Positions 1 to 27,411 of a stretch of DNA of 36,127 nt are shown piece by piece. The notes beneath the pieces were generated by a model. That model was not told where the DNA came from. It saw only the letters and a list, made by a program, of their open reading frames with translations, and made no database searches. Source of the DNA: a bacterium (GTDB lineage: Bacteria; Armatimonadota; UBA5829); the NCBI GenBank assembly GCA_021373255.1, contig JAJFTD010000147.1, positions 1 through 36,127 on the forward strand, read 5' to 3'. Every line of letters starts with the position of its first letter. The stretch's first letter is position 1. The translations under genes were made by a program, and so were the position numbers.

Positions 1-327
1 AAGCTAGACCCGGAGTTCCCTGAGGCTTATGCTGTTGGAACCTACATCTACGCAGACGGATGTAAAAACAACAAAGCCGCTATCAAATATGTGTGTGAAG
101 GCATTAAAAACAACCCCAAATCCTGGGATTTGGACCGCGTCGCCGCAATCATCTATGCCAGGCGCATGAATGATCCACAAAGCGCCATTCCCTACGCTAA
201 AATGGCCATCAGCAACTGTGACGACAAATGGTACCGCGTCCGAATGCACTGGCTTCTCAACAGCGTAGAGCGCATGGCGCGTGAAAAGAAGCTAGCTAAT
301 CAACCTCGCGCTTTACCGCAGCAGTAA
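1..327 (+). CDS. TPR-like protein, C-terminal fragment
   Basis: The reading frame is open from the first base, so this is the last 108 residues of a gene that begins outside the window. The residues form alternating amphipathic helices with TPR-like spacing (PEFPEAYAVGTYIYAD, then NNKAAIKYVCEGIKNNPKSW, then DPQSAIPYAKMAISNC). This suggests a tetratricopeptide repeat scaffold rather than an enzyme. The partner is unknown. Its last 32 bases overlap tail to tail with the cyclophilin-like gene on the other strand. The TPR call rests on the repeat pattern only; the N-terminal part could hold any domain. Confidence 0.55.
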   Translation, partial: KLDPEFPEAYAVGTYIYADGCKNNKAAIKYVCEGIKNNPKSWDLDRVAAIIYARRMNDPQSAIPYAKMAISNCDDKWYRVRMHWLLNSVERMAREKKLANQPRALPQQ

Positions 328-925
328 GAGCTGCGTAAAAATCTTTGCGATCGCGAGGAGTCAAAGGCCGAATTACGGCGTGCTTGATGGTGTCATTTTT
401 TGTTATAGACATCGCTACATCCAGCCCTCTGATCACCCGGCCAAAAGTAGTATACTCATAATCTAGACTCGGCTTGGGCTCAAGGAGTATGTAGAACACG
501 CTAGTTGCACTGTTTATATCGGCAGTACGAGCCATACCTACAGCACCTTTGACGTTGTTCAATTTAGACAGACATTCGAGGCCGAGCGTCGGAGCTTTCT
601 TTTTTGCGGTATCTGTCTGGATCAACTCATTCTTCTCCACGCGCCCGAACTTCACCCCGTCATAAGCCTTTGCGGAGACAAGTTTTGCTATTTGTTTTGT
701 GGTCTTCGGACAGTCTCTTTCAAAAAGAATGAAATCGATCTCGCCTTTACTTGTTTGTAGTTCGACTACCCTACCCGGCTGAAGTGTGGCAGGTTTGTCA
801 GTTTTTAATCCTGGTTGTGGCTCAGGCAGTGATACACGTTTAGGTTTTGTCTGCACAGCATCCAGGTAATTGTAAGCCGTGATCATACCTACAAACAGGA
901 TGATCAAGAGGATCCATCGCTTCAT
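296..925 (-). CDS. Membrane-anchored cyclophilin-type peptidyl-prolyl isomerase-like protein
   Basis: From the chosen start this is a 209-residue protein with an N-terminal hydrophobic anchor (KRWILLIILFVGMITAY), a proline-rich linker, and a cyclophilin-like domain over about residues 50-190. The core is recognisable: KGEIDFILFERDCPKTTKQ, YDGVKFGRV, GAVGMARTADINSATSVFYI and the closing TTFGRVIRGLDV. The catalytic arginine of the usual FHR-V motif is kept, but the preceding His is Gly and the usual aromatic-IQGGD stretch is ELIQTDT. Activity may therefore be weak, and a chaperone-like role outside the membrane is possible. The start at 925 has GAGG nine bases upstream; ATG at 940 is an alternative, and the frame is open to 1012. 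The gene overlaps the preceding plus-strand gene tail to tail. Confidence 0.75.
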   Translation of the reverse strand: MKRWILLIILFVGMITAYNYLDAVQTKPKRVSLPEPQPGLKTDKPATLQPGRVVELQTSKGEIDFILFERDCPKTTKQIAKLVSAKAYDGVKFGRVEKNELIQTDTAKKKAPTLGLECLSKLNNVKGAVGMARTADINSATSVFYILLEPKPSLDYEYTTFGRVIRGLDVAMSITKNDTIKHAVIRPLTPRDRKDFYAALTAAVKREVD

Positions 926-1171
926 TAATAATAACCTCATACTATTCCCGCGACCGGTAGCCCGGCTGGGACTTTTCTTTTTCAGGATAACAAATGCCGA
1001 CTCTGCTATCAAGTAACTATCGTGAGATTGGATTCAAAAGGTCAATGAATTGCTCACTTACTTTATATTATACGCAAATTACAAGCAATGGTTGCATGCT
1101 GATTTCGTCCGATGATATGTGAGGAAGATGTTGCACCGGGTTTTCCGGGTTGAGAGTGAGGGGGTTATAAA

Positions 1172-2086
1172 ATGAGACACACTGTATTAGCAGTGGCTAT
1201 TTCACTATGTTTATTGGCTAGCCAGGTTCTAGCGGGCCCGAGCATACAAAAGCTCAACGATACGCGGATCAACTGGACTGACCTTGTCTACACCGCAACC
1301 GGCGAAGGCGTGATGCCGTCCGCCAAGGAAGAGCCCAACAGGGCTAGAGCACTTCTTAAGGCAAAAGGCTATGCAAGGATGGCTGCCATAGCCAACCTCT
1401 TAGCCGCGATTGAAGGAACCACCATCAGCTACGAATCCACTGGCAAGGATTACATGGAAGATGCCACTATTCGCCAGCGGATCGAGGGTTACGTCAACAA
1501 TGTCGAAGTGGTGGGTGAACCCAGAATGGAGAAAATCGACGGCGACACCATTGTGATCGTTACCGTGCGTGCTCCGATGTTTGCTCAGAGCGGTCCGGGA
1601 TCAGTGTTCCTCCAGAGCATGATGAGCCAGGCCCAGCCTGCCGGCAAGCAGGATGTTAACGTGACTTTGAAACCAGACCTCAAGCCGGCTACAGTGGAGC
1701 CTTACGCACCAGCAAAATCCTCTGAACCGGACAAACCATACACATCTGTGATATTCGATACCACTGGTTATAAACTTGACAGGTGCATGAGCCCCAAGAT
1801 TCGCCGTGGCGATGGATCGGAAGTTTGGGGAACGGTGAAAGCAGACTTCGATATGGTGCTGGAGCGTGGAATTGCCTCTTATGCCACTTCAATGGATGAT
1901 GCTAAGAGCAACGCCCGGTGCGGCTCTAATCCGTTGATTATTGAAGCTATCGGCCGCGCTGGTGGCAAGTTCAACTCTGATCCGGTTATCTCTGATGCCG
2001 ATGCCGATCTGCTAATTGCAGAGAACGCTAAGAGCGGTTTTCTGGACAAATTCAATGTGATCATCATCAAAGATGGTAGGCTGTAA
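1172..2086 (+). CDS. Secreted protein with LPP20/FlgT-N-like domain and a paralogous C-terminal domain
   Basis: This is a 304-residue exported protein. Residues 1-21 are a signal peptide ending ASQVLA. Residues about 35-135 (ATGEGVMPS, RARALLKAKGYARMAAIANL, IRQRIEGYVNNVEVV) resemble the LPP20/FlgT N-terminal type of envelope domain. After a proline-rich linker, residues about 185-304 form a second domain that is repeated almost alone in the next gene: YTSVIFDTTGY, MSPKIRRGDGSEVWGTV, SGFLDKFNVIIIK. The start has a strong GAGGGGG eight bases upstream. The 107-base gap to the paralogue suggests co-transcription. Molecular function is unknown; the family resemblance points to an envelope or surface role. 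In related proteins this kind of tail domain accompanies LPP20-like regions, but I know no biochemical assignment. Confidence 0.7.
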   Translation: MRHTVLAVAISLCLLASQVLAGPSIQKLNDTRINWTDLVYTATGEGVMPSAKEEPNRARALLKAKGYARMAAIANLLAAIEGTTISYESTGKDYMEDATIRQRIEGYVNNVEVVGEPRMEKIDGDTIVIVTVRAPMFAQSGPGSVFLQSMMSQAQPAGKQDVNVTLKPDLKPATVEPYAPAKSSEPDKPYTSVIFDTTGYKLDRCMSPKIRRGDGSEVWGTVKADFDMVLERGIASYATSMDDAKSNARCGSNPLIIEAIGRAGGKFNSDPVISDADADLLIAENAKSGFLDKFNVIIIKDGRL

Positions 2087-2113
2087 TATACCTCTAATTC
2101 CAGCACTGGTACG

Positions 2114-2127
2114 GGTATAGTTATACC
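2114..2127. promoter_or_regulatory. Short perfect palindrome between tandem paralogues
   Basis: GGTATA-GT-TATACC lies in the 107-base gap between the two paralogous secreted-protein genes. The two-base centre makes it a poor RNA hairpin but a plausible dimer-binding site. No factor can be named. Confidence 0.25.
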
Positions 2128-2193
2128 AACTGGCAGGGAACAAGTGAGTATAATCCGAACAGGACAAACCTCTTGTGGAGGTATCGAGAGCCT

Positions 2194-2694
2194 ATGCGTA
2201 CACTTGTTATTATAATTCTGATGACCAGTCTTTGTATCGCTGCTACATCCGCAGCGATTTGTGAGGACGCAACAGGAACACCAGCGCCCACTCAGCAGCT
2301 TGCAAAGCCATCTGATCCGGGAAAGCCATATACTTCGTTGATAGTCGATGCAACAGGTCTGGGACTGGAACGAAGTATGAGCCCCAAAGTCCGCAAAGAC
2401 GACGGCAGTGAAGTTTGGGGAACAGTTAAGGTGGACTACGACTTCATCGAAGAGCATGGGCTTGTAGCTTATGCATCTTCTTTAGAAGACGCTATGAAGA
2501 ACGACCGATGTGGTGAAAACCCGATGGTGGTGAAAGCTGTGGGCGTTATGGGCAAACAAACATCAGACCCACTGGTGGCCGCTCAGGACGCAAACTTAAT
2601 AATTGATGAGAACAAGAAGAGCGGCTTCCTTGATAAGCTCAATGTCGTATTTGTAAAGGCAGCGCAGCCGACAATGACAGCCAGCGCTAAATAA
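2194..2694 (+). CDS. Small secreted paralogue of the preceding gene's C-terminal domain
   Basis: This is a 166-residue protein with a signal peptide (MRTLVIIILMTSLCIAATSA) followed by one domain that aligns along its length with residues about 185-304 of the upstream gene. Shared blocks include KPYTS-I-D-TG, the near-identical MSPK-R-DGSEVWGTVK-D, SS-EDA--N-RCG-NP, DA-L-I-EN-KSGFLDK-NV. The preceding linker also has the same Ser/Pro-rich DPGKPYTS entry. It looks like a local duplication that lost the LPP20-like half. The start at 2194 is chosen because the signal peptide begins there; GGAGG lies 12 bases upstream. A TTG at 2173 is in frame but precedes the ribosome site. A terminator hairpin follows. 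Function unknown. Confidence 0.7.
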   Translation: MRTLVIIILMTSLCIAATSAAICEDATGTPAPTQQLAKPSDPGKPYTSLIVDATGLGLERSMSPKVRKDDGSEVWGTVKVDYDFIEEHGLVAYASSLEDAMKNDRCGENPMVVKAVGVMGKQTSDPLVAAQDANLIIDENKKSGFLDKLNVVFVKAAQPTMTASAK

Positions 2695-2793: not shown

Positions 2794-3717
2794 TTATTGC
2801 TCGTAATCCACAAGCGGTCCAAGCATAATTACATCCACCATCTGACCCTCCTCAATATTATCTACATCAGGAGGGATTTTTATAATAGAGTTGAAGTTGG
2901 ACCACTGGCGATGATTATGGATGGGATGCGTTACCAGACACCTATCCTTCAGCGATGTTATGGCTCTTACATAATGCCAATAATCCTTAGGGACGTGGAT
3001 ACATTCATCAATGATGACACATGCCTCACTGCGGGAATTCTTGAGCGTCCGACCCAGCATGGTAAGAAGAGCGGGCCTTATGAGTGCTTCGAACACCTCC
3101 AGCACGCTATCCCATGGCGTTACAAACACTGGCTTTCCATCTACTGTACCAAATGCTGTTGCAGAACCGGGTTCTATGCAGACGCCATCGAACACCAGTG
3201 TCCCCGCACTACCAAGCGACTTCACACAGCTCTCGTAAGACACATCTGGACCAATTGCTATTATTGTGAGGTCATACGAAGAGCATTTGGAAACCATGTT
3301 TTCGAAGTCGCGCCCATAATCACGCACGTGAACAAGCCTGCCGAGGTCGCAGCCTGACTCGAGCACCATTCCGACAAGTTCATAACGCACGCTGTTGCGC
3401 ACCTGGCTTTGTCCGATTTTTTCGACAAGCTCGACTACATCAGGCCCTGTAGTTACCACTGCTACTCTGGGTTTTCGACTAACAGCCACGCCGGGCTTGC
3501 CAATGGACGCCAGTGCACCCATTTCGCGAGATGTAATGAGCGTTCCCCTAGGCACGATAATCTCGTATTCAGCAGGCTCATCACCAAGGCCAACTCGCTT
3601 TGCCTGCACTTGCTCGGCCAGAGTTCTGCCAAGTGCATTTATAATTCCCGCTTGCTCAAGCCCTATCTCTCTTACAGTTTCGAGAACGACCGCAAGCGCA
3701 CATTCTAAATCATACAT
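2794..3717 (-). CDS. Degenerate MoeA-like protein lacking domain II and catalytic motifs
   Basis: At 307 residues this is about 100 shorter than molybdopterin molybdenumtransferase MoeA. The MoeA order is still visible: an N-terminal helix with ALGRTLAEQV (residues 28-37), the segment ITSREMGALASIGKPGVAV, the MogA-fold domain (83-220) with KPRVAVVTTG, RNSVRYELVGMVLESG, EPGSATAFG and ALIRPALLTMLGR, and a C-terminal beta-rich domain. The whole domain II is missing between residues 41 and 55. Key motifs are replaced: TGDEL is TTGPDVVEL, GGVS-GD is AIGPDVSYE, PGNP is TPWDS. Molybdate insertion is therefore unlikely. It could bind a pterin or another ligand, or act as a structural partner. Its ATG overlaps the stop codon of the small upstream gene (TAATG), so the two are probably translationally coupled. 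Confidence 0.75.
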   Translation of the reverse strand: MYDLECALAVVLETVREIGLEQAGIINALGRTLAEQVQAKRVGLGDEPAEYEIIVPRGTLITSREMGALASIGKPGVAVSRKPRVAVVTTGPDVVELVEKIGQSQVRNSVRYELVGMVLESGCDLGRLVHVRDYGRDFENMVSKCSSYDLTIIAIGPDVSYESCVKSLGSAGTLVFDGVCIEPGSATAFGTVDGKPVFVTPWDSVLEVFEALIRPALLTMLGRTLKNSRSEACVIIDECIHVPKDYWHYVRAITSLKDRCLVTHPIHNHRQWSNFNSIIKIPPDVDNIEEGQMVDVIMLGPLVDYEQ

Positions 3718-3878
3718 TACGCACCGATGGTCTCCTCAACCTCTACGGTAGCGTCTTCATCGATCTCAAGCGCCATCTGCTCAATGGCTTCTTTTATATC
3801 ACCCTCAGTCAATCTACCACCCGACTCAGGCGACCACGCAACAGTAACCACAAATATCTGATCAACGGATTCTTCCAC
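3717..3878 (-). CDS. 53-residue acidic protein coupled to the MoeA-like gene
   Basis: A GTG start at 3878 has a perfect GGGAGG seven bases upstream, and the frame stays open for 53 codons to a TAA that shares its last A with the ATG of the MoeA-like gene. The protein begins MEESVDQIFVVTVAWSPESG and ends VEVEETIGA. It shows a hydrophobic beta strand, a glycine turn, a helix (LTEGDIKEAIEQMAL) and a last strand, with a strongly acidic charge. No family is recognised. Strong ribosome site plus 1-base overlap make it a likely real gene, and the coupling suggests a partner or subunit of the degenerate MoeA-like protein. Confidence 0.7.
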   Translation of the reverse strand: MEESVDQIFVVTVAWSPESGGRLTEGDIKEAIEQMALEIDEDATVEVEETIGA

Positions 3879-4239
3879 AACAAAACCTCCCTGTTTTCAA
3901 CACAAAGTGAGCTAGCTGCACACTGATAGTTCCCCCACTAAGGGCCAATTAACCTTCTGCTTTTTGCATACAGATATCAAATTGAATCGCTGAGGCACTG
4001 AATGGACATATTACAGATAGTGCGTCCGGCGGTTTCGGGAAAAGGGTTTCCCGAAACAACTTAATACACAACGCAGTGCGCCCGGCGGCTTCGGCAGCTT
4101 CGCAGTCCGAAGCAACGCATGTTATCACTTCGACTTTTTAACTCTGTGACTTTATGACCTTGTGATATTCTAATCTATTTCGCGCTTTCGCTCCTTCGCG
4201 TTGTCGCGATTAAAAGTACTTCTGTATTCGCTTGTTGGA
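3879..4239. repeat. Intergenic region with two related hairpin-bearing direct repeats
   Basis: No gene is seen in these 361 bases. Two similar 20-base words occur at 4019-4038 and 4075-4094 (AGTGCGTCCGGCGGTTTCGG and AGTGCGCCCGGCGGCTTCGG, two differences). Each forms one arm of a hairpin: GTTTCGGGAAA at 4032-4042 pairs with 4047-4057 (11 bp, 4-base loop), and GCTTCGG at 4088-4094 pairs with 4107-4113. This is REP-like architecture. The stretch from 4120 to 4239 is AT-rich with repeated TTCGC words. The promoter for the small gene at 3878 must lie here, but no consensus boxes are clear. Confidence 0.5.
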
Positions 4240-8771: not shown

Positions 8772-10232
8772 TTAATCTAACTGCAACTCTACGATCACAC
8801 TGCGGTCGCCACGTTGAACTACCACCAGCGCCGTATCACCACTGCCTAACTTACTCATCGCCTTACTGAATGTGGCAACACTTGTAACCGGAGTGTTATC
8901 TACTTCTGTAATGACGTCCTTAGGTTGAATTCCGGCGTGATCTGCAGCACTACCCGGATCAACTTTTCGGACTACCACACCCTGCACGCCATCGCCAATA
9001 CCAAGCTGCTTGGCAAGATCAGAAGTAAGCGGCTGGACCTGCATGCCGGTTTTGTCCGATCCGTCACTCGATGAAGCACTATCGTTTCCAGAGGGCGCTT
9101 CGCCCAACTTTACAGAGATGGTCTTTTCTTTCTTGTCCCGGATAACTATCATCTTTACAGTTTCCCCAGGAGCAAGTTTCTCAACAGCATGTCGCAGTTC
9201 GGAACCGCTTGAGATCTGCTGGTTATCAACCTTTATGATAATATCCTTGACCTGTAGACCGGCCTTTGCTGCCGCTCCATCGTCCACAACGCTGGTAACA
9301 AGTGCGCCCTCTTTGGCGCCAAGTTTGTCACCCAGGCTTGGGGTCAAATCCCTCATCTCAACACCAAGGAATCCTCTAACCACCTTGCCCTTATCTATCA
9401 ACTGCTTCATCACGAATTGCGCGGTGTTGGAAGGAATGGCAAATCCGATGCCCACATTTCCACCCGATGTGGAGTATATAGCGCCGTTGATACCGATCAC
9501 TCGTCCATCAAGATTTACAAGCGGGCCTCCTGAGTTGCCTGGATTAATGGAGGCATCTGTCTGAATAACTTCAGGGTAAGGAAGTGGGTCCTCAGGGTCC
9601 ACTTCTTTGCGAACGGCGCTCACAACACCGACTGTGAGGGTATTTCGCAGGCCAAACGGGCTGCCAATCGCCACCGACCACTGTCCCACTTTAACCTTGT
9701 CGGAATCTGCGAGTTGTGCGGCAGGTAAGTCCTTAGCATCGATCTTCACTAGCGCAAGGTCAGTGCGAGGATCGGTTAATACTTTTCCGTTGAATTTACG
9801 GCCGTCGGCTAACCTGACAGTCACCTTGTCTGCTCCAGCTACTACATGATTATTAGTGAGTATGTAGCCATCGGAGCGAACAATAACGCCCGAGCCGCTT
9901 GCGCGCTTCGTCTGCTTTCGGGTTTCAGGAGCGTTACGCGGACCGCCAAACGGGCCAAAATTGAAGAAATCGTCCAGACCGGACATCGGGTTGCTCACTT
10001 CAACAGTGGTTTCCGTTGTAATGTAGACAACACTTGGAGCGAGCTTGTCGGATATATCCTCGAATACAGTGCGCCAGTCGGACAAGGCTGTATCCTTTGT
10101 CGGTGCCGCAATGGCCGGGGACGGGGTGTGATGGTAAATATTTGCTGCAAGTGAGAAGCCGAGAGCCAGGCTGAGAAGTGCTACAATCACCAGACTCGGC
10201 TGTTTCAGCGCTTGTTTCAACGCTGTCCGCAT
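8772..10232 (-). CDS. htrA: HtrA/Do-family periplasmic serine protease with two PDZ domains
   Basis: The 486-residue protein has an N-terminal export or anchor helix (residues 13-31), a trypsin-like protease domain (about 55-290) and two PDZ domains (about 290-375 and 390-485). The catalytic triad is intact: H129 in TNNHVV, D158 in DPRTDLALVKI, and S234 in NPGNSGGPL. Length and layout match DegP/DegQ/MucD. It degrades or refolds misfolded envelope proteins. AAGGAGG precedes the ATG. Just upstream is an ECF-type promoter that matches the one before the sigma gene two genes away, so it is probably the main target of that sigma factor. Which of the Do subfamilies it belongs to cannot be decided here. 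Confidence 0.95.
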   Translation of the reverse strand: MRTALKQALKQPSLVIVALLSLALGFSLAANIYHHTPSPAIAAPTKDTALSDWRTVFEDISDKLAPSVVYITTETTVEVSNPMSGLDDFFNFGPFGGPRNAPETRKQTKRASGSGVIVRSDGYILTNNHVVAGADKVTVRLADGRKFNGKVLTDPRTDLALVKIDAKDLPAAQLADSDKVKVGQWSVAIGSPFGLRNTLTVGVVSAVRKEVDPEDPLPYPEVIQTDASINPGNSGGPLVNLDGRVIGINGAIYSTSGGNVGIGFAIPSNTAQFVMKQLIDKGKVVRGFLGVEMRDLTPSLGDKLGAKEGALVTSVVDDGAAAKAGLQVKDIIIKVDNQQISSGSELRHAVEKLAPGETVKMIVIRDKKEKTISVKLGEAPSGNDSASSSDGSDKTGMQVQPLTSDLAKQLGIGDGVQGVVVRKVDPGSAADHAGIQPKDVITEVDNTPVTSVATFSKAMSKLGSGDTALVVVQRGDRSVIVELQLD

Positions 10233-10282
10233 AGTGTGTGTTACCTCCTTGTTTGAGCCTTAATAAGAGGGTTATCTGTCCG

Positions 10283-10312
10283 TTTTGACGGAGATGGTGG
10301 TCTCTACGTTCC
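10283..10312 (-). promoter_or_regulatory. ECF sigma-type promoter of htrA
   Basis: On the minus strand GGAAC (10312-10308) and CGTCAA (starting 10290) are 17 bases apart. This fits the classical ECF -35 GGAAC and -10 CGTC pattern. The same elements with the same spacing stand before the sigma gene at 11561. The leader to the htrA ATG is about 45 bases. Confidence 0.7.
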
Positions 10313-10320
10313 ACAAACAA

Positions 10321-10389
10321 TGCACAAAGCGCCAGCCAAAATCTGGTTTTACAGGCCTGTTCAGAGCCCCCAGAATTTGCCTGGCGCTT
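10321..10389 (-). terminator. Possible terminator of the sigma/anti-sigma operon
   Basis: AAGCGCCAG (10327-10335) is complementary to CTGGCGCTT (10381-10389), with an internal AACAGGCCTGT palindrome in a long loop. On the minus strand it follows the anti-sigma stop and ends in CTTTGTG. The long loop and weak T-run make it uncertain; it would insulate the ECF promoter of htrA. Confidence 0.4.
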
Positions 10390-10409
10390 CGCGCTCAGAA
10401 ATCCGTAAT

Positions 10410-10952
10410 CTATCTCCCAGCCATGCTCACAAGTTCGATCTTGGGAGTAAGCTCTCTCCCGCTTTCATTAACTACCAGCGGTCGAGATGATGAACTTAAG
10501 GATATTGGGTTTCCTGGAATTTGGGGCACATACTTGACCTCAATGGCTTGCCCATCATACGGAGCAGACGCCACCATCTGGCTCTGATCCTGTTGGCCCA
10601 CATTGTCCATTCCACCCGCCGACATCAATACCAGTGCCACACCAGACACCGCGAGAGCTGCAGCGACCGGGCTGAGCTTACTACGAAAAATCCGCACAGA
10701 AGAATTAATAATTCGCTGATAGCGCGGCACTTGTACCACATCCAGCGTGGCCAACATCGAGTTGACGAAATCCTCCCGGGGCCGTATGGTCCTAAGTCGC
10801 GATACCGCCAGCTTCATCGCTAATGTAGACTCATGCTCTTCCGCGCATTCAGCGCAGTTATCAAGATGCCTTCTTATCTCTAGCATCTCAACTCCGGTAA
10901 GCTCTCCATCTACATACGCGGACATCAAACTAACCACACGACGGCAATTCAT
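10410..10952 (-). CDS. Zinc-finger (ZAS) transmembrane anti-sigma factor
   Basis: The 180-residue protein has an N-terminal zf-HC2 anti-sigma domain with H29, C33 and C36 in RRHLDNCAEC and an upstream C3, one membrane helix (about 93-113, SPVAAALAVSGVALVLM) and a short extracytoplasmic tail. Such proteins hold the ECF sigma factor encoded by the gene just upstream until an envelope signal releases it. The gap to that gene is 15 bases, and AGG lies nine bases before the ATG. Pairing with an HtrA protease downstream is the RseA/MucA style of arrangement. Whether release needs proteolysis or redox chemistry cannot be told. Confidence 0.9.
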   Translation of the reverse strand: MNCRRVVSLMSAYVDGELTGVEMLEIRRHLDNCAECAEEHESTLAMKLAVSRLRTIRPREDFVNSMLATLDVVQVPRYQRIINSSVRIFRSKLSPVAAALAVSGVALVLMSAGGMDNVGQQDQSQMVASAPYDGQAIEVKYVPQIPGNPISLSSSSRPLVVNESGRELTPKIELVSMAGR

Positions 10953-10967
10953 GCTCTAGCACCTACC

Positions 10968-11561
10968 TCATACTAACTGATTGGCATAACTTTTTAGTTT
11001 GTTCCTGAGAAGCCGCCTGCCACGGTGCAGCCGTGAACGAACGGTTCCAATGTTTGTGCTGGTAGACTCGGCTATTTCCTCATAGGACATACCCTCAATA
11101 TCAGCATAGATAACAGTTAATCTAAAAGCCTCAGGGAGGGTATCCAAAGCCGCCTGAATGCGGCTGTCCATCTCCCTGGAGAGAACAGTCTCCTCCGGGC
11201 CGGCAGAATTATCCGGCACATCGAATTGAGCTTCTCCCTCACTTGTCACTACGGGCTGATCCAGCGATCTTATCATCGCCTTAGGCTTTCTTCTCAGCCT
11301 GTCGATGAACACGTTGGACATAATCTTATACAACCAGCTATCAAAAGGAAGTTCCCTACGATATTGCCCAAAGAACCTGAATGCGCGTATAAACGCTTCC
11401 TGGGTTAGATCTTCAGCATCCGCATGATTTCCGGCCATGCGGTAGGCGATATTATAGGCTTGCTTATGATAACGCTGGACTAGCGCGTCAAACTCTTTCC
11501 TGTCTTCGCTCCGAGCCACATCGGAGACGGTCTCCGCAAGTTCCACCAAAGTGGCCTCCAC
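10968..11561 (-). CDS. ECF RNA polymerase sigma factor (RpoE/SigW-like)
   Basis: The 197-residue protein has region 2 at about residues 24-92 (FDALVQRYHKQAYNIAYRM, AEDLTQEAFIRAFRFF, FDSWLYKIMSNVFIDRLRR) and region 4 at about 132-183 (LPEAFRLTVIYADIEGMSYE, IGTVRSRLHRGRRLL). It directs RNA polymerase to GGAAC/CGTC-type promoters. Start is GTG at 11561 with AGGA six bases before it; a GTG five codons in, preceded by GGTGGAGG, is an equally good alternative. Upstream lie both a housekeeping-type promoter and an ECF-type one, so autoregulation is likely. It forms an operon with its anti-sigma factor, and htrA follows. Confidence 0.95.
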   Translation of the reverse strand: MEATLVELAETVSDVARSEDRKEFDALVQRYHKQAYNIAYRMAGNHADAEDLTQEAFIRAFRFFGQYRRELPFDSWLYKIMSNVFIDRLRRKPKAMIRSLDQPVVTSEGEAQFDVPDNSAGPEETVLSREMDSRIQAALDTLPEAFRLTVIYADIEGMSYEEIAESTSTNIGTVRSRLHRGRRLLRNKLKSYANQLV

Positions 11562-18115: not shown

Positions 18116-19258
18116 CTACCCAACAAATACATCTCGAATAGCTTCAAGGTATCCCATACCATATTCGGTATCAGGCTCCAGGTAACTTCCTTCAGTCCAT
18201 TCATTCCATGCGTTTATGGTGAGAAACTTAAAGTCTATCTCCTGGTCCATGAAATCTTTTGCTATTTGCAGGTATTCACTGAACGCTTCAGGAGTGTTAT
18301 TGCTGAGAATTGGAGTAAACGGGCCACCACCCATATTGATGAAAGTATCTGATTGCACTGTTCTCGGTGATGAATCCCATCCCATCGTCACGTGTGGATA
18401 ATATGATACTCCGGAGCCTTTTAGCTTATTCTTCCATAGCTCGATCACTTGAGATTTAATGGAGCTGTAGTCGGTCGTTGGGAAATCAGGCCTTGGAATG
18501 TCATGTATCCAGGTATATGAGCCAGTGCTATCGAAATTCAATGATTTTATAGTGTCTGCATAATCTTTGACAGCGTACTCCTGTGGCAAATTTGGAAGAG
18601 CAAATGCGATGGAATTCAGGTGCAGGTCTGGAAATCCCGCCTTTTTTGTCTTCGCACGGAAAGTCTCCAGAGCCTTTGCCGCACCTGCTACTCCACCGAA
18701 ACTCTTCAACAAGTCTGCAAGGCTGTATATCGAAAAATACGGGCATCCATTGATTTTCCAATAGGATGGATGCTTGAAGTATTTATCTATAACATAGTCC
18801 GTAAGGTCATTAAACTCAGCTTCATTTACTGCACCATGAAATAGCATCGGACTTGTGCCGAATTTTGCATCGTAGTAGGACGCAGGGTGCATGTGAAGCC
18901 AGTCGTGATTGGCCCACATCAGTGAAAAGCCTATGCGCTGGTTGTTCTGAGCGCCCATGAAGCCATTCTCAAGCGCCTTGTGCAGATATGGCTTGTTTTC
19001 ATACCAATACCAGTCGAATATGAAGTTTGTAACCCCATGATCCGCTGCTGCATCTATCTTTTTCGCCATTACAGTCGGATCAGACTCGTCTTCATAACCC
19101 CATGCAGGAACAAGCGGCTGGCGATGTCCGGGAAAACGGGGCACTGCACGCTTCATCAGTTCCCATTCATTCCAACCCGGGCCGTGAACTTCCTCATTAC
19201 GTGGATCGATATGGAAATTCGGGAAATAGTATACTCCGATTTCGTATTTATTCTGCAT
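18116..19258 (-). CDS. WbsX/GH99-like domain protein, cytoplasmic
   Basis: The 380-residue protein matches the Glyco_tran_WbsX / GH99-like family: IGVYYFPNFH at the start, GWNEWELMKRAVPRFPGH, DPTVMAKKIDAAADHGV, FIFDWYWYENKPYL, MWANHDW, and near the end TINAWNEWTEGSYLEPD. The pair E353 and E356 (ExxE) matches the glutamate pair of GH99-type enzymes, so hydrolysis of an alpha-linked sugar or a transferase-like role is possible. There is no signal peptide, so it acts inside the cell, perhaps on imported oligosaccharide. It is the last gene of the regulator operon, 31 bases after the secreted homologue; the ribosome site is weak and suggests coupling. The family name WbsX comes from O-antigen loci, where no reaction is firmly proven. 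Confidence 0.8.
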   Translation of the reverse strand: MQNKYEIGVYYFPNFHIDPRNEEVHGPGWNEWELMKRAVPRFPGHRQPLVPAWGYEDESDPTVMAKKIDAAADHGVTNFIFDWYWYENKPYLHKALENGFMGAQNNQRIGFSLMWANHDWLHMHPASYYDAKFGTSPMLFHGAVNEAEFNDLTDYVIDKYFKHPSYWKINGCPYFSIYSLADLLKSFGGVAGAAKALETFRAKTKKAGFPDLHLNSIAFALPNLPQEYAVKDYADTIKSLNFDSTGSYTWIHDIPRPDFPTTDYSSIKSQVIELWKNKLKGSGVSYYPHVTMGWDSSPRTVQSDTFINMGGGPFTPILSNNTPEAFSEYLQIAKDFMDQEIDFKFLTINAWNEWTEGSYLEPDTEYGMGYLEAIRDVFVG

Positions 19259-19289
19259 TTATGATCTACTCACTCCTGTATTACAAGAC

Positions 19290-20894
19290 CTATTGGCCTA
19301 ATAAACTCGCTTTTGTACTAACCCAATTTAGATATGTTTGATCGTATGGCCCCAACCCTACGTCTTCAGGCAGGATATCAATATGTGTTGCGGCAGGTGA
19401 TTGCGTGAACACATCCCGAATCGCATCTATAAAACCGAATCCGTATTCTCTGCACGGGGCCAGATAGTGCCCTTCGCCAAATTCCGCCCAGTTATCCAGC
19501 AGGACGAAATTGTGAAACGGGCTCGATGATGGACCAGAATCAACCAGAGCTTTCATCTGTTCTGCTTCTTGCTTAAAATAGCGAGGTGACATACGCAATT
19601 TAGGGCTATCAGCAGTACCGAATGGATATTGCGTATAGTCTATCCACGGAGACGGGTCCCATTCAGACGACAGCGTCGGTATTACAGGCAGGACATTGGC
19701 ATTTATTCTAGTGGTTGTGTTGTCGATAATACATTGCACTGCTGCCTCATCAACCACTGTTTGTTGTGGCGAGGCACAGTATGCCCAGTTCGCATCAAAA
19801 CCTGAGTCTTTCACATACTGGAAATACTGTGAATAGCTGCGCATTTCAACGGCTATCCACAGACCGCCAAGACCCTGTTCCACACACTTCTGCCGCCAGC
19901 CATCCAAATATGCCTTGCATGCGCTTGGCCCACCAAGGTCGTCTATTAATTCCCATGGCGAATAGAAGAAGATAACTGGTTTTCCGTCAATCTTCAAATA
20001 GTTGGATTTCTTGAAATAGTTATCAATCCAATATTGTATCGCCCCATCAAACTGTGTCAGACCACTCATCCAGTGCGTGTAGGTAGGTGCGATGCAGAAT
20101 TTGATCTTTGAGTTATACTTCGCTTTGGGAAACGTTTGATCGATAGCCCAGTTTTCCGAAGGCTTGATTGGTCCTGGAACGCAGGTATAGTCCCTACCCC
20201 AGATGTAACAGAAGAACTCTATCCCGTGCTCCAAAGCCCACTTAATCTGCCAATCAGTGCACTCGGGATTGCTGTCATCGAACCAGCCAAGCGCAGGTTG
20301 GCGCTCCGGGTAAGGCTCGATCATAGACCAGCCGCCGTAATAATCGAACGTAGCCACATTGTAACTTGCCCAGTAGATCATGCCGATGTGATACGGATTC
20401 ACAACAGGCCGTGGCTCCGGTACGTATGGCGCAGGCTGACTGATTACGGCGGGTTTGAATGATGCCTCCACAGTGGCATTTGTAGCGATGCCGTTAGCGG
20501 TAGCAATAACTTTTACCACGCCATCAAATGGCTTTCCGGCTGTAACTCTCCATGAAAGGGTTGAATTACCGCGTAGTTCGTATTCTTTTATAACCGGGTT
20601 CGGAAATGGACATGATGCATACACGGCTTTCTTTGTCCATTTACTAGTCTGCTTTACAGCCGGATCTAGCAGCTTCAGCTCGGGTGGAAGCACTATCCTT
20701 ACGCTGACGTTGAGAGGGTTTTCGGTTGGATTCTCAAGTCTAACGTTCAACGTCTCTGTACGCCCTGCGCGTAAGATTGCCCTGTTCCAGTATGGTTTCA
20801 CGATCACGGCCGATTCAGCCGCAGCCACTTGAGCCATCATCAATGTCCCTATCACCAACACGCAGAACAGAGCTGTGATCTTATACTTTCTCAA
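19290..20894 (-). CDS. Secreted GH99-like protein with N-terminal beta-sandwich
   Basis: The 534-residue protein has a signal peptide ending in AQVAAA, an N-terminal beta-sandwich (about 30-145, ETLNVRLENPTENPLNVSV and NSTLSWRVTAGKPFDG, NEW3/CARD-like), a proline linker and a GH99-like catalytic domain (about 165-500). Markers are YHIGMIYWASYN, WALEHGIEFFCYIWGRDY, YWIDNYFKKSNYLKIDGKP, and LLDNWAEFGEGHYLAP with the conserved ExxE pair (E471, E474). It probably cleaves glycan outside the cytoplasm; substrate unknown. TTG at 20894 is preferred since GGAG lies six bases before it and the signal peptide begins there; a TTG at 20906 is an alternative. It follows the prepilin gene by 30 bases. Confidence 0.8.
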   Translation of the reverse strand: MRKYKITALFCVLVIGTLMMAQVAAAESAVIVKPYWNRAILRAGRTETLNVRLENPTENPLNVSVRIVLPPELKLLDPAVKQTSKWTKKAVYASCPFPNPVIKEYELRGNSTLSWRVTAGKPFDGVVKVIATANGIATNATVEASFKPAVISQPAPYVPEPRPVVNPYHIGMIYWASYNVATFDYYGGWSMIEPYPERQPALGWFDDSNPECTDWQIKWALEHGIEFFCYIWGRDYTCVPGPIKPSENWAIDQTFPKAKYNSKIKFCIAPTYTHWMSGLTQFDGAIQYWIDNYFKKSNYLKIDGKPVIFFYSPWELIDDLGGPSACKAYLDGWRQKCVEQGLGGLWIAVEMRSYSQYFQYVKDSGFDANWAYCASPQQTVVDEAAVQCIIDNTTTRINANVLPVIPTLSSEWDPSPWIDYTQYPFGTADSPKLRMSPRYFKQEAEQMKALVDSGPSSSPFHNFVLLDNWAEFGEGHYLAPCREYGFGFIDAIRDVFTQSPAATHIDILPEDVGLGPYDQTYLNWVSTKASLLGQ

Positions 20895-20924
20895 TATCTT
20901 CTCCAAAAGAAGTGAAGTCCTATC

Positions 20925-23006: not shown

Positions 23007-25484
23007 TTACTCTTGGATAGTGTTAATATCCTCGTCCCGGTTGATCAAGACCAGTCTTTCACCGGAAGCATTCAATGATATAATGCCTATCACGCTGACA
23101 TATGCATTATCAGCGGGAGCAGTTGCGCCAATACACTTCACATTGACTTTCGCGCCTGAGCCATCAGCCAATGTGAAATCAGTCGTGCTGCCGGACGGAT
23201 TTGATACACGGCCGGTAGTTTTGATAAGCAAACCGATGTTGTTCAGGCCAACGCCATCAGATATGCCCGGCTGCCCGATTAGATCGTTAGCAGTGCCACC
23301 CAAGGTCTTGTTGGTCATAAAGTGCACCGGAATTGTCGCAGAAGTCCATACACCCTGGGCGCTGCCATTGGTGACATCTATCACACGCTCATTTGTTATC
23401 GGGTCGTGAGACATAACACCAACGATGGTCATGCTAAAACCCTCTCCCCAGTTCCAATTAGGAGGGGTATTAACGCGAATACCGGTTAGCCCATCAGCCG
23501 ACGATACATATATATAATCGGAGAAAGGCCTGGACAGATACACGTTGTCCAGCATTACATCTGCACCATCGGGGAGCATCAGAGCATCTTTGAGACTTGG
23601 AGTGAGCTCAGGAGTAGGAACAACTCGATCTACCTTTACATCGAGCGTAACTTCCTTGTCATACCATCGATCTCCACCACCCCACATTGAGATGTAGTCA
23701 AAATCAGTCGGAACGCCAAATGCGCCTCTGAAATCGAGGGTGTCGCCCTGGGTAAGGTAGAGCATGCCATTCTTGTATACATAATCGTTAGCGCCGGTTA
23801 CATCGCCGACAGCCAGGTTCATAAACCAAGAATCGAAATTCTTCGATACAGCGACGCTACAATCCGGTGAGTTCACTCCGAGCCCGTAGGTCGCTAGTAC
23901 TGAATAATAACCAGTATACGGTGCGACAAACTGAACCACAGGCTTTGCCACTGACCAGCCATCAGAGCTCGAACCATCGTGCAGAGCGAGAAGCCCCGGA
24001 TACTTTGTATCTGAAACGCATGGAGTATTCTCAGCGGCTGTGGTTTGGTCATACCAGGCAGTAAAAGTGGCCCCTACCGGGAATGTTGGAGTGCCATAGG
24101 TGCTCATCGGCGATATTGCACCGGTGCCTCTTCCGGCATCATACTTATCCCATACATAGTGCCAATTACCGCTAGAGCTGGATGTCTTGGAGAAGTCACG
24201 AACAGCGTCGAACTGCGCGGTTGTGGCTTCGGCTTTCTTAATGGATACCGAAACGGTGACGCCTCTATTGTCTGCGTCTGTTACATCGAATCTATCGGAA
24301 CCATAGGCTCCAAAGAACTCCAGTGTTTCATTTGCCGCCATCGACAGTCGGCGCGAGACTTTATAATCTTTGCCCACGGAAACCGTGCCAATTGCGAGAG
24401 CCTTTGTATCCCAATTATCACCATCAACAAGATTCTTGGTGATGCGTACATTCGATGCCACTGTTCCTGTCAGGTGATAAACTACATCCAGTGTGTATAT
24501 AGCAGTACATGGCGATGTCCAACGCACGACCGGCTTCCAGAGCATGTTAACGCCTTGAGTCGTCTGGAATACGCCAGTGCCGGGCTTGAGAGTAAGAACG
24601 CCATCTCCACCAACAGTAATGGCAGGTTTGGTAGTAAGAGTATCGTACCATGGCATCCAGCCATAGGTTTTGTCATAAACGTTGCATGTTTCGAGTACGG
24701 GCCAGCCCCAGTGCGGATCATCGAACATATACTTCCAGGTGCCGTCCCAGCTCGGGTTGATATCCTGCGAATAGTCGTAAGCGGCGTTCCAATTCGTCCA
24801 TGCCGATGTGTCATCCGGCATCAAATCTACCTTGGCATTCAGATATACATTCCTGTTCCACCATCTGGTGCTGTCAAAGCCGACATAATCCGTAGTTGCG
24901 GCATTGTAGGCACCCTGAAACTCGATGGTGTCACCAGCATAGAGGTTCATCAGTCTATCAAATGCCCACGTGCGTCCGTTGGACTCCACGATACCGCTGG
25001 CGAGGCAGTCACTCCAATTACTGCTCGAGAAGTTCTGAGAAACGCGAACAGAGGACATCTCGTATGCGCCGTTGTTATCCCAGTTCCTTAGATCTGGAAA
25101 AGCGGTGTAGGTCGCTGCGATCCTGTATAGACCGTCAGTAAGCACTTTCCACTGAACAGCAGGATTGAGCAGATCGCCTGGCCCCCATTGATCCCGCGAA
25201 CCGGCTTTCATTGAAATGCCGTTTGCTGTGTCTTTGCTGAGCCACGGTAGATTGGTATAACCTGTGGTTGTCCAGCCGCTAGGGGTGGGAACGCCGAGTT
25301 GCGACATATACGGAGGATTCCATATGGCGTTCCAATCCGTGTATCCATAAGTCCATTGACCATTTGGATTTGCGGTTGCGGAATAGTCTCCAGCCGCATC
25401 CCAGTGGCTAGCTCCGCAGGGCATCGCCAACGACAATACCACCACCATCGTAGCAAGAGCTAACGTCCATTCACCTTTTTTCAT
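23007..25484 (-). CDS. Large secreted protein with three DxxxDYS-type modules and OB-like tail
   Basis: The 825-residue protein has a signal peptide (1-25) followed by three modules of about 200 residues starting at WDAAGDYSATANPNGQWTYG (28), WNAAYDYSQDINPSWDGTWK (about 233) and FDAVRDFSKTSSSSGNWHY (about 427). Each goes on with a (A/P)VVRWTSP-like strand, Y-V-ATY, V-KNF, and GDT(I/L)(E/D)F(Q/R)GA(Y/F). The last about 200 residues form two OB-like units: TGIRVN, IVGVMSHDPITNERVIDVTN, then LNNIGLLIKTTGRVSNP, FTLADGSGAKVNV. Aromatic richness suggests glycan binding; no catalytic motif is seen. It lies 42 bases after a gene sharing first module and tail; AAAGGAG precedes the ATG. No named family is assigned. 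Confidence 0.75.
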   Translation of the reverse strand: MKKGEWTLALATMVVVLSLAMPCGASHWDAAGDYSATANPNGQWTYGYTDWNAIWNPPYMSQLGVPTPSGWTTTGYTNLPWLSKDTANGISMKAGSRDQWGPGDLLNPAVQWKVLTDGLYRIAATYTAFPDLRNWDNNGAYEMSSVRVSQNFSSSNWSDCLASGIVESNGRTWAFDRLMNLYAGDTIEFQGAYNAATTDYVGFDSTRWWNRNVYLNAKVDLMPDDTSAWTNWNAAYDYSQDINPSWDGTWKYMFDDPHWGWPVLETCNVYDKTYGWMPWYDTLTTKPAITVGGDGVLTLKPGTGVFQTTQGVNMLWKPVVRWTSPCTAIYTLDVVYHLTGTVASNVRITKNLVDGDNWDTKALAIGTVSVGKDYKVSRRLSMAANETLEFFGAYGSDRFDVTDADNRGVTVSVSIKKAEATTAQFDAVRDFSKTSSSSGNWHYVWDKYDAGRGTGAISPMSTYGTPTFPVGATFTAWYDQTTAAENTPCVSDTKYPGLLALHDGSSSDGWSVAKPVVQFVAPYTGYYSVLATYGLGVNSPDCSVAVSKNFDSWFMNLAVGDVTGANDYVYKNGMLYLTQGDTLDFRGAFGVPTDFDYISMWGGGDRWYDKEVTLDVKVDRVVPTPELTPSLKDALMLPDGADVMLDNVYLSRPFSDYIYVSSADGLTGIRVNTPPNWNWGEGFSMTIVGVMSHDPITNERVIDVTNGSAQGVWTSATIPVHFMTNKTLGGTANDLIGQPGISDGVGLNNIGLLIKTTGRVSNPSGSTTDFTLADGSGAKVNVKCIGATAPADNAYVSVIGIISLNASGERLVLINRDEDINTIQE

Positions 25485-25526
25485 AGATACTCTCTCCTTT
25501 CGTCTCCTTAAGAATCAGATTACTTT

Positions 25527-27335
25527 TCACAACCTTTGAATGCTGCCACCGCTGTCGCCAACGATAATCAGCCTTGAACCATGAAGACTGCTGCACGAGC
25601 TGATGCCGGTTATCATGACATAAGCATTGTCTGCTGGTGCCATGCCCTCGGGACAGATTACATTTACTTGCACTCCAGAGCCGTCAGTGATGGCAAATTC
25701 ATTAGTGTTCGCTGTCGGGTTGGCGACCTTGCCCCATGTCCGAACAAGAATGCCGATATTGTTTAGTCCGTAGCCACTACTTACGCCAGCTTGAGCGAGT
25801 GTGGCTTCATATAATAGATCACCTCCACCAAGGGAGCAATTGTTCATTGCGACAGGTGTCAGTGCCTTGCCTTGAGCACCACTTGCACTGCCGTTCGTTG
25901 CATCTATATAGCGTTCGCCGTTCGGCATTGTCGCCATAATCCCTGTTATGGACGCCGTATAACCGACCTCTAGCGGATGCCCGGCTTTCTTGACCCTTAT
26001 GCCGCAGCTTCGAGTAGCATCTTCGATGAAGAAATAATCACCAAGGAGGGTGGTCACGGTCATATCATTGCAACTGGCCATTCCGCCGTCGGTAGTTTTC
26101 TTGATGTTTGAAATCGATGTCGGTTGCGCTGAAATAGTCGAGTTAACAACAAGTCCCCTCGCTGCAGGAAACTCGAAACGGTTGTATGCGCCACGACTAA
26201 TGGATGTGCTCCAACCATTTGTGCCCGGGTAGTTCCATAACGCAATTGTTTGGGAGCTTCCCGCCGGAATATTGTTTTTAAGTGTAATATCGCAGAGCCT
26301 TATCGGAGTTGTTGCTGTGATGGGTGACGCTGTGGTTAATACAACATGCGCTCCGTATGGTCTTGTGCCGCTTCCGTCACCTCCACCTAATCCGTTTGCA
26401 GTTGCACTCCATCCTGATGCAAACGCTGATGCGGGTGAGTTTGATGCCGTGACTGTGCGCTGAGTCGCTGATGCCGATGCGCCCATTGTTGTCGCTGTAT
26501 CGAAGCCCAGAAGCAATTCAGCTTTATCAAATTGGGATGCATCCGGGGTTTGACACCATACAGAGACAGTGAATGTGGAACCGGGCGCAATATCAAGGCT
26601 GTTTAATTGAACTCCGTTGGCATCTCCCAGCCACATATCCAGATTCCCGCGCATGTCTGCAGCCTGGTCCACAACCACACCCAGCTTCATTATTCTTTTC
26701 TCTGAGCGGGTTCCATTAAAGCCTATATAACTGAGGACTGGCGGGTAGGCTCCTTGAAACTCCACGGTATCTGCAATGAGCAACGGCAGGATGGAGTCAT
26801 AAGTCCAGCTTGGTCCACCTGATGTCAAGGTTTGTTCTGCAAGGCACTGGTTCCAGGTGACATCGGTGAAGTTCTTGGTGATACGCACTGCTGATTGTTC
26901 AGAAGCATTTCCATTCATAATGCCGGGCGCATGAGTGTATGTTGCGACGACATGATATTTGCCCATTCCGGGGCTGGTCCATTGGATTACCGGCTTGACT
27001 TCGTTGGATTTGAGTGCCAGCGAAGAGTTCAAGCCTGATTTTAATAGTAATGAGCCTGAGTCCAATGATATTGATGGATTAGTAGTGTATGCAGTAGATG
27101 TCCAGGCGTTTGTCGAAGTGTTATATGATGAAAGCGGAACGACAAACGGGCCACCAGTCCAGAGAGTGTTCCAGTCAGTGCAACCATATAGCCATGCACC
27201 GCTCGCTGATGGATTGTTAGTTGTAGAGAAATCAGCAACACAATCCCAATGATCGGCTGAGAATGCTGCTTGGATTAATGACAGGAATGTCACTGCAACG
27301 GCCGTTATTCCAAGTATTTTTGTTGCTTTCAGCAT
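25527..27335 (-). CDS. Secreted protein with one DxxxDFS module, cohesin-like domain and OB-like tail
   Basis: From the chosen start the protein has 602 residues: signal peptide (ending QAAFSA), one module homologous to those in the next gene (DHWDCVADFSTTNNP, PVIQWTSPGMGKYHVVATYT, SAVRITKNF, DTVEFQGAY), a cohesin-like beta-sandwich (LDIAPGSTFTVSVW, AELLLGFDTATTMG, ALWNYPGTNGW), and the same OB-like pair at the C terminus (CGIRVKKAG, GERYIDATNG, LNNIGILVRTWGKV). A scaffold or glycan-binding role is inferred. ATG 27335 is preferred with GAGG six bases before it; ATG 27350 with AGGG also fits. It is the first gene of this operon, under the promoter at 27412-27441. No dockerin partner is seen nearby. 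Confidence 0.75.
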   Translation of the reverse strand: MLKATKILGITAVAVTFLSLIQAAFSADHWDCVADFSTTNNPSASGAWLYGCTDWNTLWTGGPFVVPLSSYNTSTNAWTSTAYTTNPSISLDSGSLLLKSGLNSSLALKSNEVKPVIQWTSPGMGKYHVVATYTHAPGIMNGNASEQSAVRITKNFTDVTWNQCLAEQTLTSGGPSWTYDSILPLLIADTVEFQGAYPPVLSYIGFNGTRSEKRIMKLGVVVDQAADMRGNLDMWLGDANGVQLNSLDIAPGSTFTVSVWCQTPDASQFDKAELLLGFDTATTMGASASATQRTVTASNSPASAFASGWSATANGLGGGDGSGTRPYGAHVVLTTASPITATTPIRLCDITLKNNIPAGSSQTIALWNYPGTNGWSTSISRGAYNRFEFPAARGLVVNSTISAQPTSISNIKKTTDGGMASCNDMTVTTLLGDYFFIEDATRSCGIRVKKAGHPLEVGYTASITGIMATMPNGERYIDATNGSASGAQGKALTPVAMNNCSLGGGDLLYEATLAQAGVSSGYGLNNIGILVRTWGKVANPTANTNEFAITDGSGVQVNVICPEGMAPADNAYVMITGISSCSSLHGSRLIIVGDSGGSIQRL

Positions 27336-27411
27336 TACAAACCTCAACATGACCACCCTGTAAGTGATAGGAACACTGCGTAACAATCACTCCGGTGTCA
27401 CTACCACTCGC

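Follow-up and report, generated by a model that had tools for sequence, protein, structure and literature searches.

A probably repurposed MoeA-fold protein encoded next to a new family of small acidic proteins in a genus of Armatimonadota apparently without a molybdenum-cofactor pathway

The window, by which the whole analyzed stretch of 36,127 nucleotides is meant (contig JAJFTD010000147.1 of assembly GCA_021373255.1), originates from a bacterium of the Armatimonadota (UBA5829) and carries near its beginning a MoeA-like gene with a small gene directly upstream (Table 1). The stop codon of the small gene and the start codon of the MoeA-like gene share base 3717 (TAATG) in ...GCGTAATGTATG..., and this one-base overlap, together with the good ribosome site of the small frame (GGGAGG, 7 nt before GTG), was confirmed as first described from the sequence. 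Two paralogous genes, divergent to a cyclophilin gene, are located between the latter and the MoeA-like pair, and their products are 57% identical over the C-terminal 120 residues. Below, the genome of the window is designated G000 and its same-genus relatives G001–G004; G017 belongs to the same order. By tblastn, the paralogues were also found beside the cyclophilin gene in G001, G003, G004 and G011. The remainder of the window includes a sigma-E-like factor, a zinc-finger anti-sigma factor and a DegQ/HtrA-type protease in a row (8772–11561), adjacent WbsX/GH99-like proteins (18116–20906), two large neighboring proteins of 825 and 619 aa that look secreted and resemble each other in their sequence features (23007–27386) and a separate secreted-looking protein of 757 aa (27660–29933); neither the 825-aa nor the 757-aa protein had a Pfam match at 0.001.

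Table 1. Features of the locus, with positions counted from the first letter of the window.
Feature	Positions	Strand	Description	Basis
Cyclophilin-type peptidyl-prolyl isomerase	296..1012	-	Hydrophobic N-terminal stretch	PF00160, synteny
Two paralogous genes	1172..2694	+	304 and 173 aa, signal-peptide-like starts; no Pfam match	ORFs, tblastn
MoeA-like gene	2794..3717	-	307 aa, ATG at 3717; domains I, III and IV, no domain II	ORF, Pfam/NCBIfam, AlphaFold2, Foldseek, VIA-align, orthologues
TPWD replacing the LPGNP loop	3109..3120	-	Codons 200-203	Alignment
IGPDVSYE replacing GGVSxGDxD	3232..3255	-	Codons 155-162	Alignment
TTGPD replacing TTGDE	3439..3453	-	Codons 89-93	Alignment
Domain II junction	3571..3606	-	Codons 38-49	Alignment with full-length G003 and G004 proteins and E. 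coli MoeA
53-aa acidic protein	3717..3878	-	GTG at 3878; not in Pfam or NCBIfam	ORF, homologues, alignment of ten
Ribosome-binding site GGGAGG of the small gene	3886..3891	-	7 nt before GTG	Sequence

In Pfam, the MoeA-like protein passed the MoeA_C cut-off with 22.2 bits against 22.1, and MoeA_N (only positions 132–160 of 160) and MoCF_biosynth scored below their cut-offs; PADLOC and PHROG searches gave no match. The phmmer search against the PDB placed Glp/MoeA2 of C. glutamicum first (8bve, 2.6e-14), followed by MoeA, Cnx1E and gephyrin. The AlphaFold2 model, built from a 13-row alignment, reached a mean pLDDT of 87.8 and a pTM of 0.87. Its comparison by VIA-align with Cnx1E, MoeA and the gephyrin E domain gave Z values of about 28–30 over about 300 residues, so the predicted fold is that of MoeA with domains I, III and IV. 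The gephyrin E domain and plant Cnx1E thus share their fold with the protein, and E. coli MoeA (PDB 1g8l) represents the ancestor type, with the same three domains and the same chain topology. The sequence-only reading had described the frame as unbroken and its fold-defining segments as intact, in agreement with the 307-aa ORF, the kept glycines and prolines of the fold and the confident model.

Orthologues of the MoeA-like gene, all with the same catalytic changes, were present in three of the four same-genus relatives (G001, G003 and G004) at 43–48% identity, and the reading frame is open in all four carriers. Residues were compared in an alignment of the window protein with E. coli MoeA and 65 MoeA rows. 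About 95 E. coli positions, corresponding to domain II, have no counterpart in the window protein, and the losses that had been read from it earlier (domain II gone, TGDE turned into TGPD, GGVSxGD into IGPDVSYE and PGNP into TPWD) were all confirmed. The E. coli catalytic set used here (D59, T100, D142, E188, D259, K279 and P301) consists of mutants named in PDB titles, apart from D259 and P301, which we take to be catalytic positions as well; none of the seven is retained. The window protein has D at the position of E188, E at those of both D259 and K279, and Q at that of S371; P301 falls into a gap, and D228 and R350 are kept (E. coli numbering). At the E188 position, D in all four members of the group stands against E in all 60 other rows, and at the D259 position, E in the four against D in the 60, whereas none of the four retains K279, S371 or P301, which is the second PGNP proline. 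Of 26 columns that contained a window residue and showed a conservation of 90% or more among the 60 other rows, 12 were kept in all four members, 8 in none and 6 in some, whereby glycines and prolines of the fold persist and catalytic positions do not. Moreover, 19 residues are invariant in the group of four, yet have a frequency below 10% in the 60 other rows, as expected for a new constraint.

Markers of the molybdenum-cofactor (Moco) pathway were sparse in the genus. MoaC was absent from all five genus genomes, against 7 of 28 genomes of the class. The MoaA C-terminal family was found in 6 of the 28 class genomes and, within the genus, in one of five (G000). The molybdopterin-oxidoreductase family PF00384 was present in 19 of 28 and, within the genus, in G000 and G002 only, with no match in G001, G003 and G004. 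The match in G002 is a protein of 749 aa; of those in G000, one is a fragment of 48 positions and the other an iron-sulphur fusion of 964 aa that bears a TAT signal and is presumably ActB of alternative complex III, which is without Moco. MoCoBD_1 was found in none of the 28 class genomes (controls were positive in 5 of 14), and Oxidored_molyb in one of them, outside the genus. MoaE was dropped as a pathway marker, with a match in only one of the 28 class genomes although seven have MoaC; six of these seven had no match to PF02391, so MoaE would be very divergent or replaced in the class.

A nitrate-assimilation-like cluster with an apparently intact moaA was found on contig C157 of G000 (L038, 10000–29000; 11798–14206). 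The moeA of this cluster is without residues 63–286 of the G005 protein and has a frame change in addition, its match to the molybdate transporter MOT1 covers residues 9–242 of 353, and its molybdopterin oxidoreductase is a fragment. This state results either from a recent loss of Moco use in G000 or from an assembly fault. Whether the genome encodes a second, complete MoeA had been posed as a check on the locus, and none was found besides this internally deleted, frame-changed copy. The assemblies are drafts with some contamination (completeness and contamination of 100% and 4.62% for G000, 98% and 6% for G001, 98% and 1% for G003, and 99% and 1% for G004), so absent pathway genes are not proof. 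Overall, the genomes carrying the MoeA-like gene appear to be without a usable cofactor pathway. Since the catalytic residues and domain II are lost and the pathway is apparently absent, the MoeA-like protein should be unable to make the cofactor; these same three features, all missing here, set it apart from the bacterial MoeA molybdotransferases, and judged by sequence it is not a MoeA enzyme.

The history of the gene was followed in a tree of 65 rows (one fragment was dropped, and no Glp sequence was among the rows). The group of four formed one clade with a domain-II-less protein of the same order (G017_short) at a support of 100/99, and this clade adjoined canonical MoeAs of the same class (G005, G016 and G021) with a moderate support of 96/75. 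A further MoeA of G017 is full-length and distant, and its gene has a MoaC gene as neighbor. G003 and G004 possess domain II, which is missing from G000, G001 and G017_short. A single loss common to the three proteins without it was rejected with the domain II columns removed (AU p 3.5e-6), and a single loss for G000 and G001 alone was compatible with the data (AU p 0.224). At least two independent losses of domain II are therefore required by the alignment, and the best tree suggests three. A search of contigs with a single protein gave no further loci, and that with the alignment of four gave 12, of which 11 were other MoeAs and the remaining one (L070) looks like the own contig of G001, with an identical length and the same flanking small gene. 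In G002 (80% complete), the locus is present up to the next gene and contains no MoeA-like gene, so the gene can apparently be dispensed with. For a degenerate moeA remnant downstream of the small gene in G002, the best blastn match had an E-value of only 0.86, and none is claimed.

Selection was estimated (dN/dS, Nei-Gojobori) from the closest pair, G003 and G004, the remaining pairs being saturated or nearly so, and amounted to 0.13 for the MoeA-like gene (dS 1.24), 0.11 for the cyclophilin gene and 0.03 for the small gene. Within the MoeA-like protein of this pair, domain II was 67% identical with a dN/dS of about 0.2, and the remainder 77% identical with about 0.11. On these estimates, the remaining MoeA fold is under purifying selection and is maintained rather than decaying. 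The opposite explanation, a functionless gene that has been decaying since the loss of the Moco pathway and is merely still unbroken, would agree with the loss of this pathway in the genus, with a second moeA in G000 that is truly broken, with the repeated loss of domain II and its lower conservation in G003 and G004, and with the missing gene of G002. However, decay is disfavored because the orthologues in three of four relatives share the losses and because of the dN/dS of 0.13, which strongly argues against it; the frames that remained open in all four carriers at such divergence, the 19 newly fixed residues and the confident fold are likewise against decay, which we consider improbable. 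The earlier idea that motif losses unique to this strain would indicate gene decay does not apply either, as they are common to G001, G003 and G004.

The closest non-enzymatic counterpart to be weighed is the actinobacterial Glp. The sections of PMC10522489 and PMC11733289 cited here describe it as a MoeA paralogue without active site, whose binding partners are the tail of FtsZ and GlpR, a membrane protein, and in PMC11733289 it is judged to be repurposed and not moonlighting. Our protein resembles Glp as a MoeA descendant with an altered active site, and if it were a member or close relative of Glp it would act at the divisome via the C-terminal tail of FtsZ. This would fit the NCBIfam search, in which the Glp model NF045515 was the top-scoring one for the window protein and for G001, G003, G004 and G017_short, and the Foldseek search, in which Glp with the FtsZ tail (8bvf) had the best E-value. 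However, the NF045515 score was 132 bits against a cut-off of 475, and even the full-length proteins of G003 and G004 reached only 201 and 191. A canonical MoeA of the class scored 407, so the match is not specific. VIA-align, moreover, ranked Cnx1E, MoeA and gephyrin (Z 30 to 28 at rmsd 2–4) above Glp (Z about 27 at rmsd 5). The FtsZ contacts M361, Y369 and L370 given in PMC10522489 align to I253, R259 and C260, and the hairpin loop is two residues shorter. Regarding the Pro-rich hinges of the Glp type, there is no proline near residues 17–24, and the second linker has P75 and P83, of which P75 is group-specific. Glp also retains its domain II, occurs alongside a functional MoeA and has GlpR as its receptor, whereas in our case the complete pathway seems to be lost, some members of the group have no domain II and the FtsZ loop is not recognizable. 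Because of the score below the cut-off and the differing FtsZ-loop positions, the protein was not assigned to Glp, and such an identity seems very unlikely.

Binding of a pterin, nucleotide or metal, with a role as sensor or scavenger, would be another way of using the fold without catalysis, and a pterin-binding module had been considered in the sequence-only reading. The model shows an intact MoCF fold, D228 and R350 have been retained, and at the E188 and D259 positions all four proteins still have an acidic residue (E to D and D to E), leaving room for the binding of a ligand or metal of some kind. On the other side, none of the four has GGVS, K279, the second PGNP proline or S371, and the Moco pathway appears absent. 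With the pterin and molybdenum positions gone, the pterin-binding idea could not be upheld, and a sensor or scavenger has a low probability.

Homologues of the 53-aa protein were found in 10 of 28 class genomes, and the same ten were the only ones among 291 genomes of the phylum: all five of the genus, four more of the family and one more of the order. The doubt whether the small frame is conserved in relatives was thereby removed, with the protein present in four of four same-genus relatives at 63–69% identity to that of the window. Their common core is F-x-(V/I)-T-(V/I)-x-W-S-P-E-S-x-x-R-x-T-E-G-D-(I/V), and Q7, F9, W15, S16, E18, R22, D40 and E49 are invariant in ten homologues. A search of all ten homologues against Pfam and NCBIfam for a known family gave scattered matches only, the best stray ones at 0.061 (2 of 10 members) and 0.0075 (MurU, 3 of 10 members). 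A ferredoxin-like or EF-hand identity was also rejected, the profile search against the PDB giving calmodulin at E 0.23 and worse, which was taken as chance from the acidic helix composition. There was no PADLOC or PHROG match, and the AlphaFold2 model from a two-sequence input contained one sure helix at residues 25–39 (pLDDT 80.8, pTM 0.54) and had no Foldseek match. From its conservation, the small protein is real, more conserved than the MoeA-like protein and older than their association, and it constitutes a new family conserved within an order-level lineage.

In all four genus genomes that carry it, the MoeA-like gene lies immediately downstream of the small one; the one-base overlap of the window is replaced by a spacing of 33 nt in G003 and G004, and the start in G001 is uncertain (TTG). 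Judged from gene content, the pairing is far beyond chance because three of four same-genus relatives have the MoeA-like gene and four of four the small protein. The other six of the ten genomes that have the small gene (G002, G006, G007, G010, G011 and G015) gave no MoeA-like match, and G017, the carrier of the sister MoeA-like protein, has no small gene. In the vicinity, a convergent gene for a FliA/WhiG-like sigma factor adjoins the end of the small or the MoeA-like gene in G001, G002 and G004 (L034, L035, L033, L049); in G003, the same sigma gene is about 4.4 kb off.

The more widespread neighbor of the small gene is the cyclophilin gene, which is directly upstream in 8 of 10 genomes (G001–G004, G006, G007, G010 and G011), against 4 of 10 with an adjacent MoeA-like gene. 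It might accordingly be asked whether the small protein is functionally tied to cyclophilin, the MoeA-like gene having merely joined an existing operon. Both exceptions are against such a tie: in the window, the pair stays together with its one-base overlap and two genes separate it from the cyclophilin gene, while in G015, which has the small gene, the 13 kb covered contain no cyclophilin gene. Furthermore, the two proteins are probably separated by the membrane, with the cyclophilin domain on the outside and the small protein on the inside. We regard the cyclophilin tie as a serious contender with somewhat less than an even chance. The "dedicated small partner" proposed from the sequence is thus only half supported: the adjacency in four of four genomes and the pairing away from the cyclophilin gene in the window stand, but the small gene is older, occurs in six of ten genomes without a MoeA-like gene and mostly follows cyclophilin, and it is missing from G017.

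Our preferred reading is that a former MoeA has left Moco synthesis and, with its MoeA/gephyrin fold, has probably been repurposed for a non-enzymatic role. That the protein is functional and non-catalytic is very likely, while its working by peptide or protein binding is an evenly balanced question. The non-catalytic, maintained fold foreseen in the sequence-only reading is supported by the shared losses, the purifying selection and the absent pathway. In this reading, the former MoeA, its catalytic positions lost, would no longer serve Moco synthesis and would still form the homodimer of domains I, III and IV. Like gephyrin and Glp, this dimer may hold a short peptide or a small protein. In the sections of PMC12441120 cited here, gephyrin without subdomain II still dimerises and binds the receptor peptide but no longer forms filaments, and half of the substrate site lies in subdomain II. 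By this analogy, the forms without domain II would bind and dimerise but not polymerise. Gephyrin differs in that it keeps catalysis, the filament-forming subdomain II and a fused MogA domain, whereas the ORF of the window holds MoeA parts only. The likeliest ligand on genomic grounds would be the acidic protein encoded directly upstream, the two genes presumably being co-transcribed and the small gene being linked to that of a putative membrane-anchored cyclophilin. To name the small protein as the direct partner is a guess, and we would sooner expect it to be wrong than right.

Repurposing of MoeA is described in the cited sections of PMC11733289 for eukaryotes (gephyrin) and Actinobacteria (Glp, with further MoeA copies in the genome), and those of PMC6147048 describe partial Moco traits, mostly orphan molybdoproteins. 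In our searches of open-licence PMC papers, we found no comparable case of a repurposed MoeA in a lineage without the Moco pathway. The most far-reaching version of our reading would be a third independent repurposing after gephyrin and Glp, in which a Moco-less genus uses a minimal dimeric peptide receptor that repeatedly shed domain II, needed only for catalysis and polymerisation, and adopted an older acidic protein of about 50 residues as its ligand; taken with all its parts, it is slightly more doubtful even than the direct partnership. As the pathway is apparently absent and only a dead copy is kept, the function of the protein could not be cofactor synthesis, which would remove the enzymatic confounder from this lineage. 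The repeated discarding of domain II, with the rest under selection, would separate the binding core of the MoeA fold from its catalytic and filament-forming part, and the small protein would represent both a new family and a candidate ligand.
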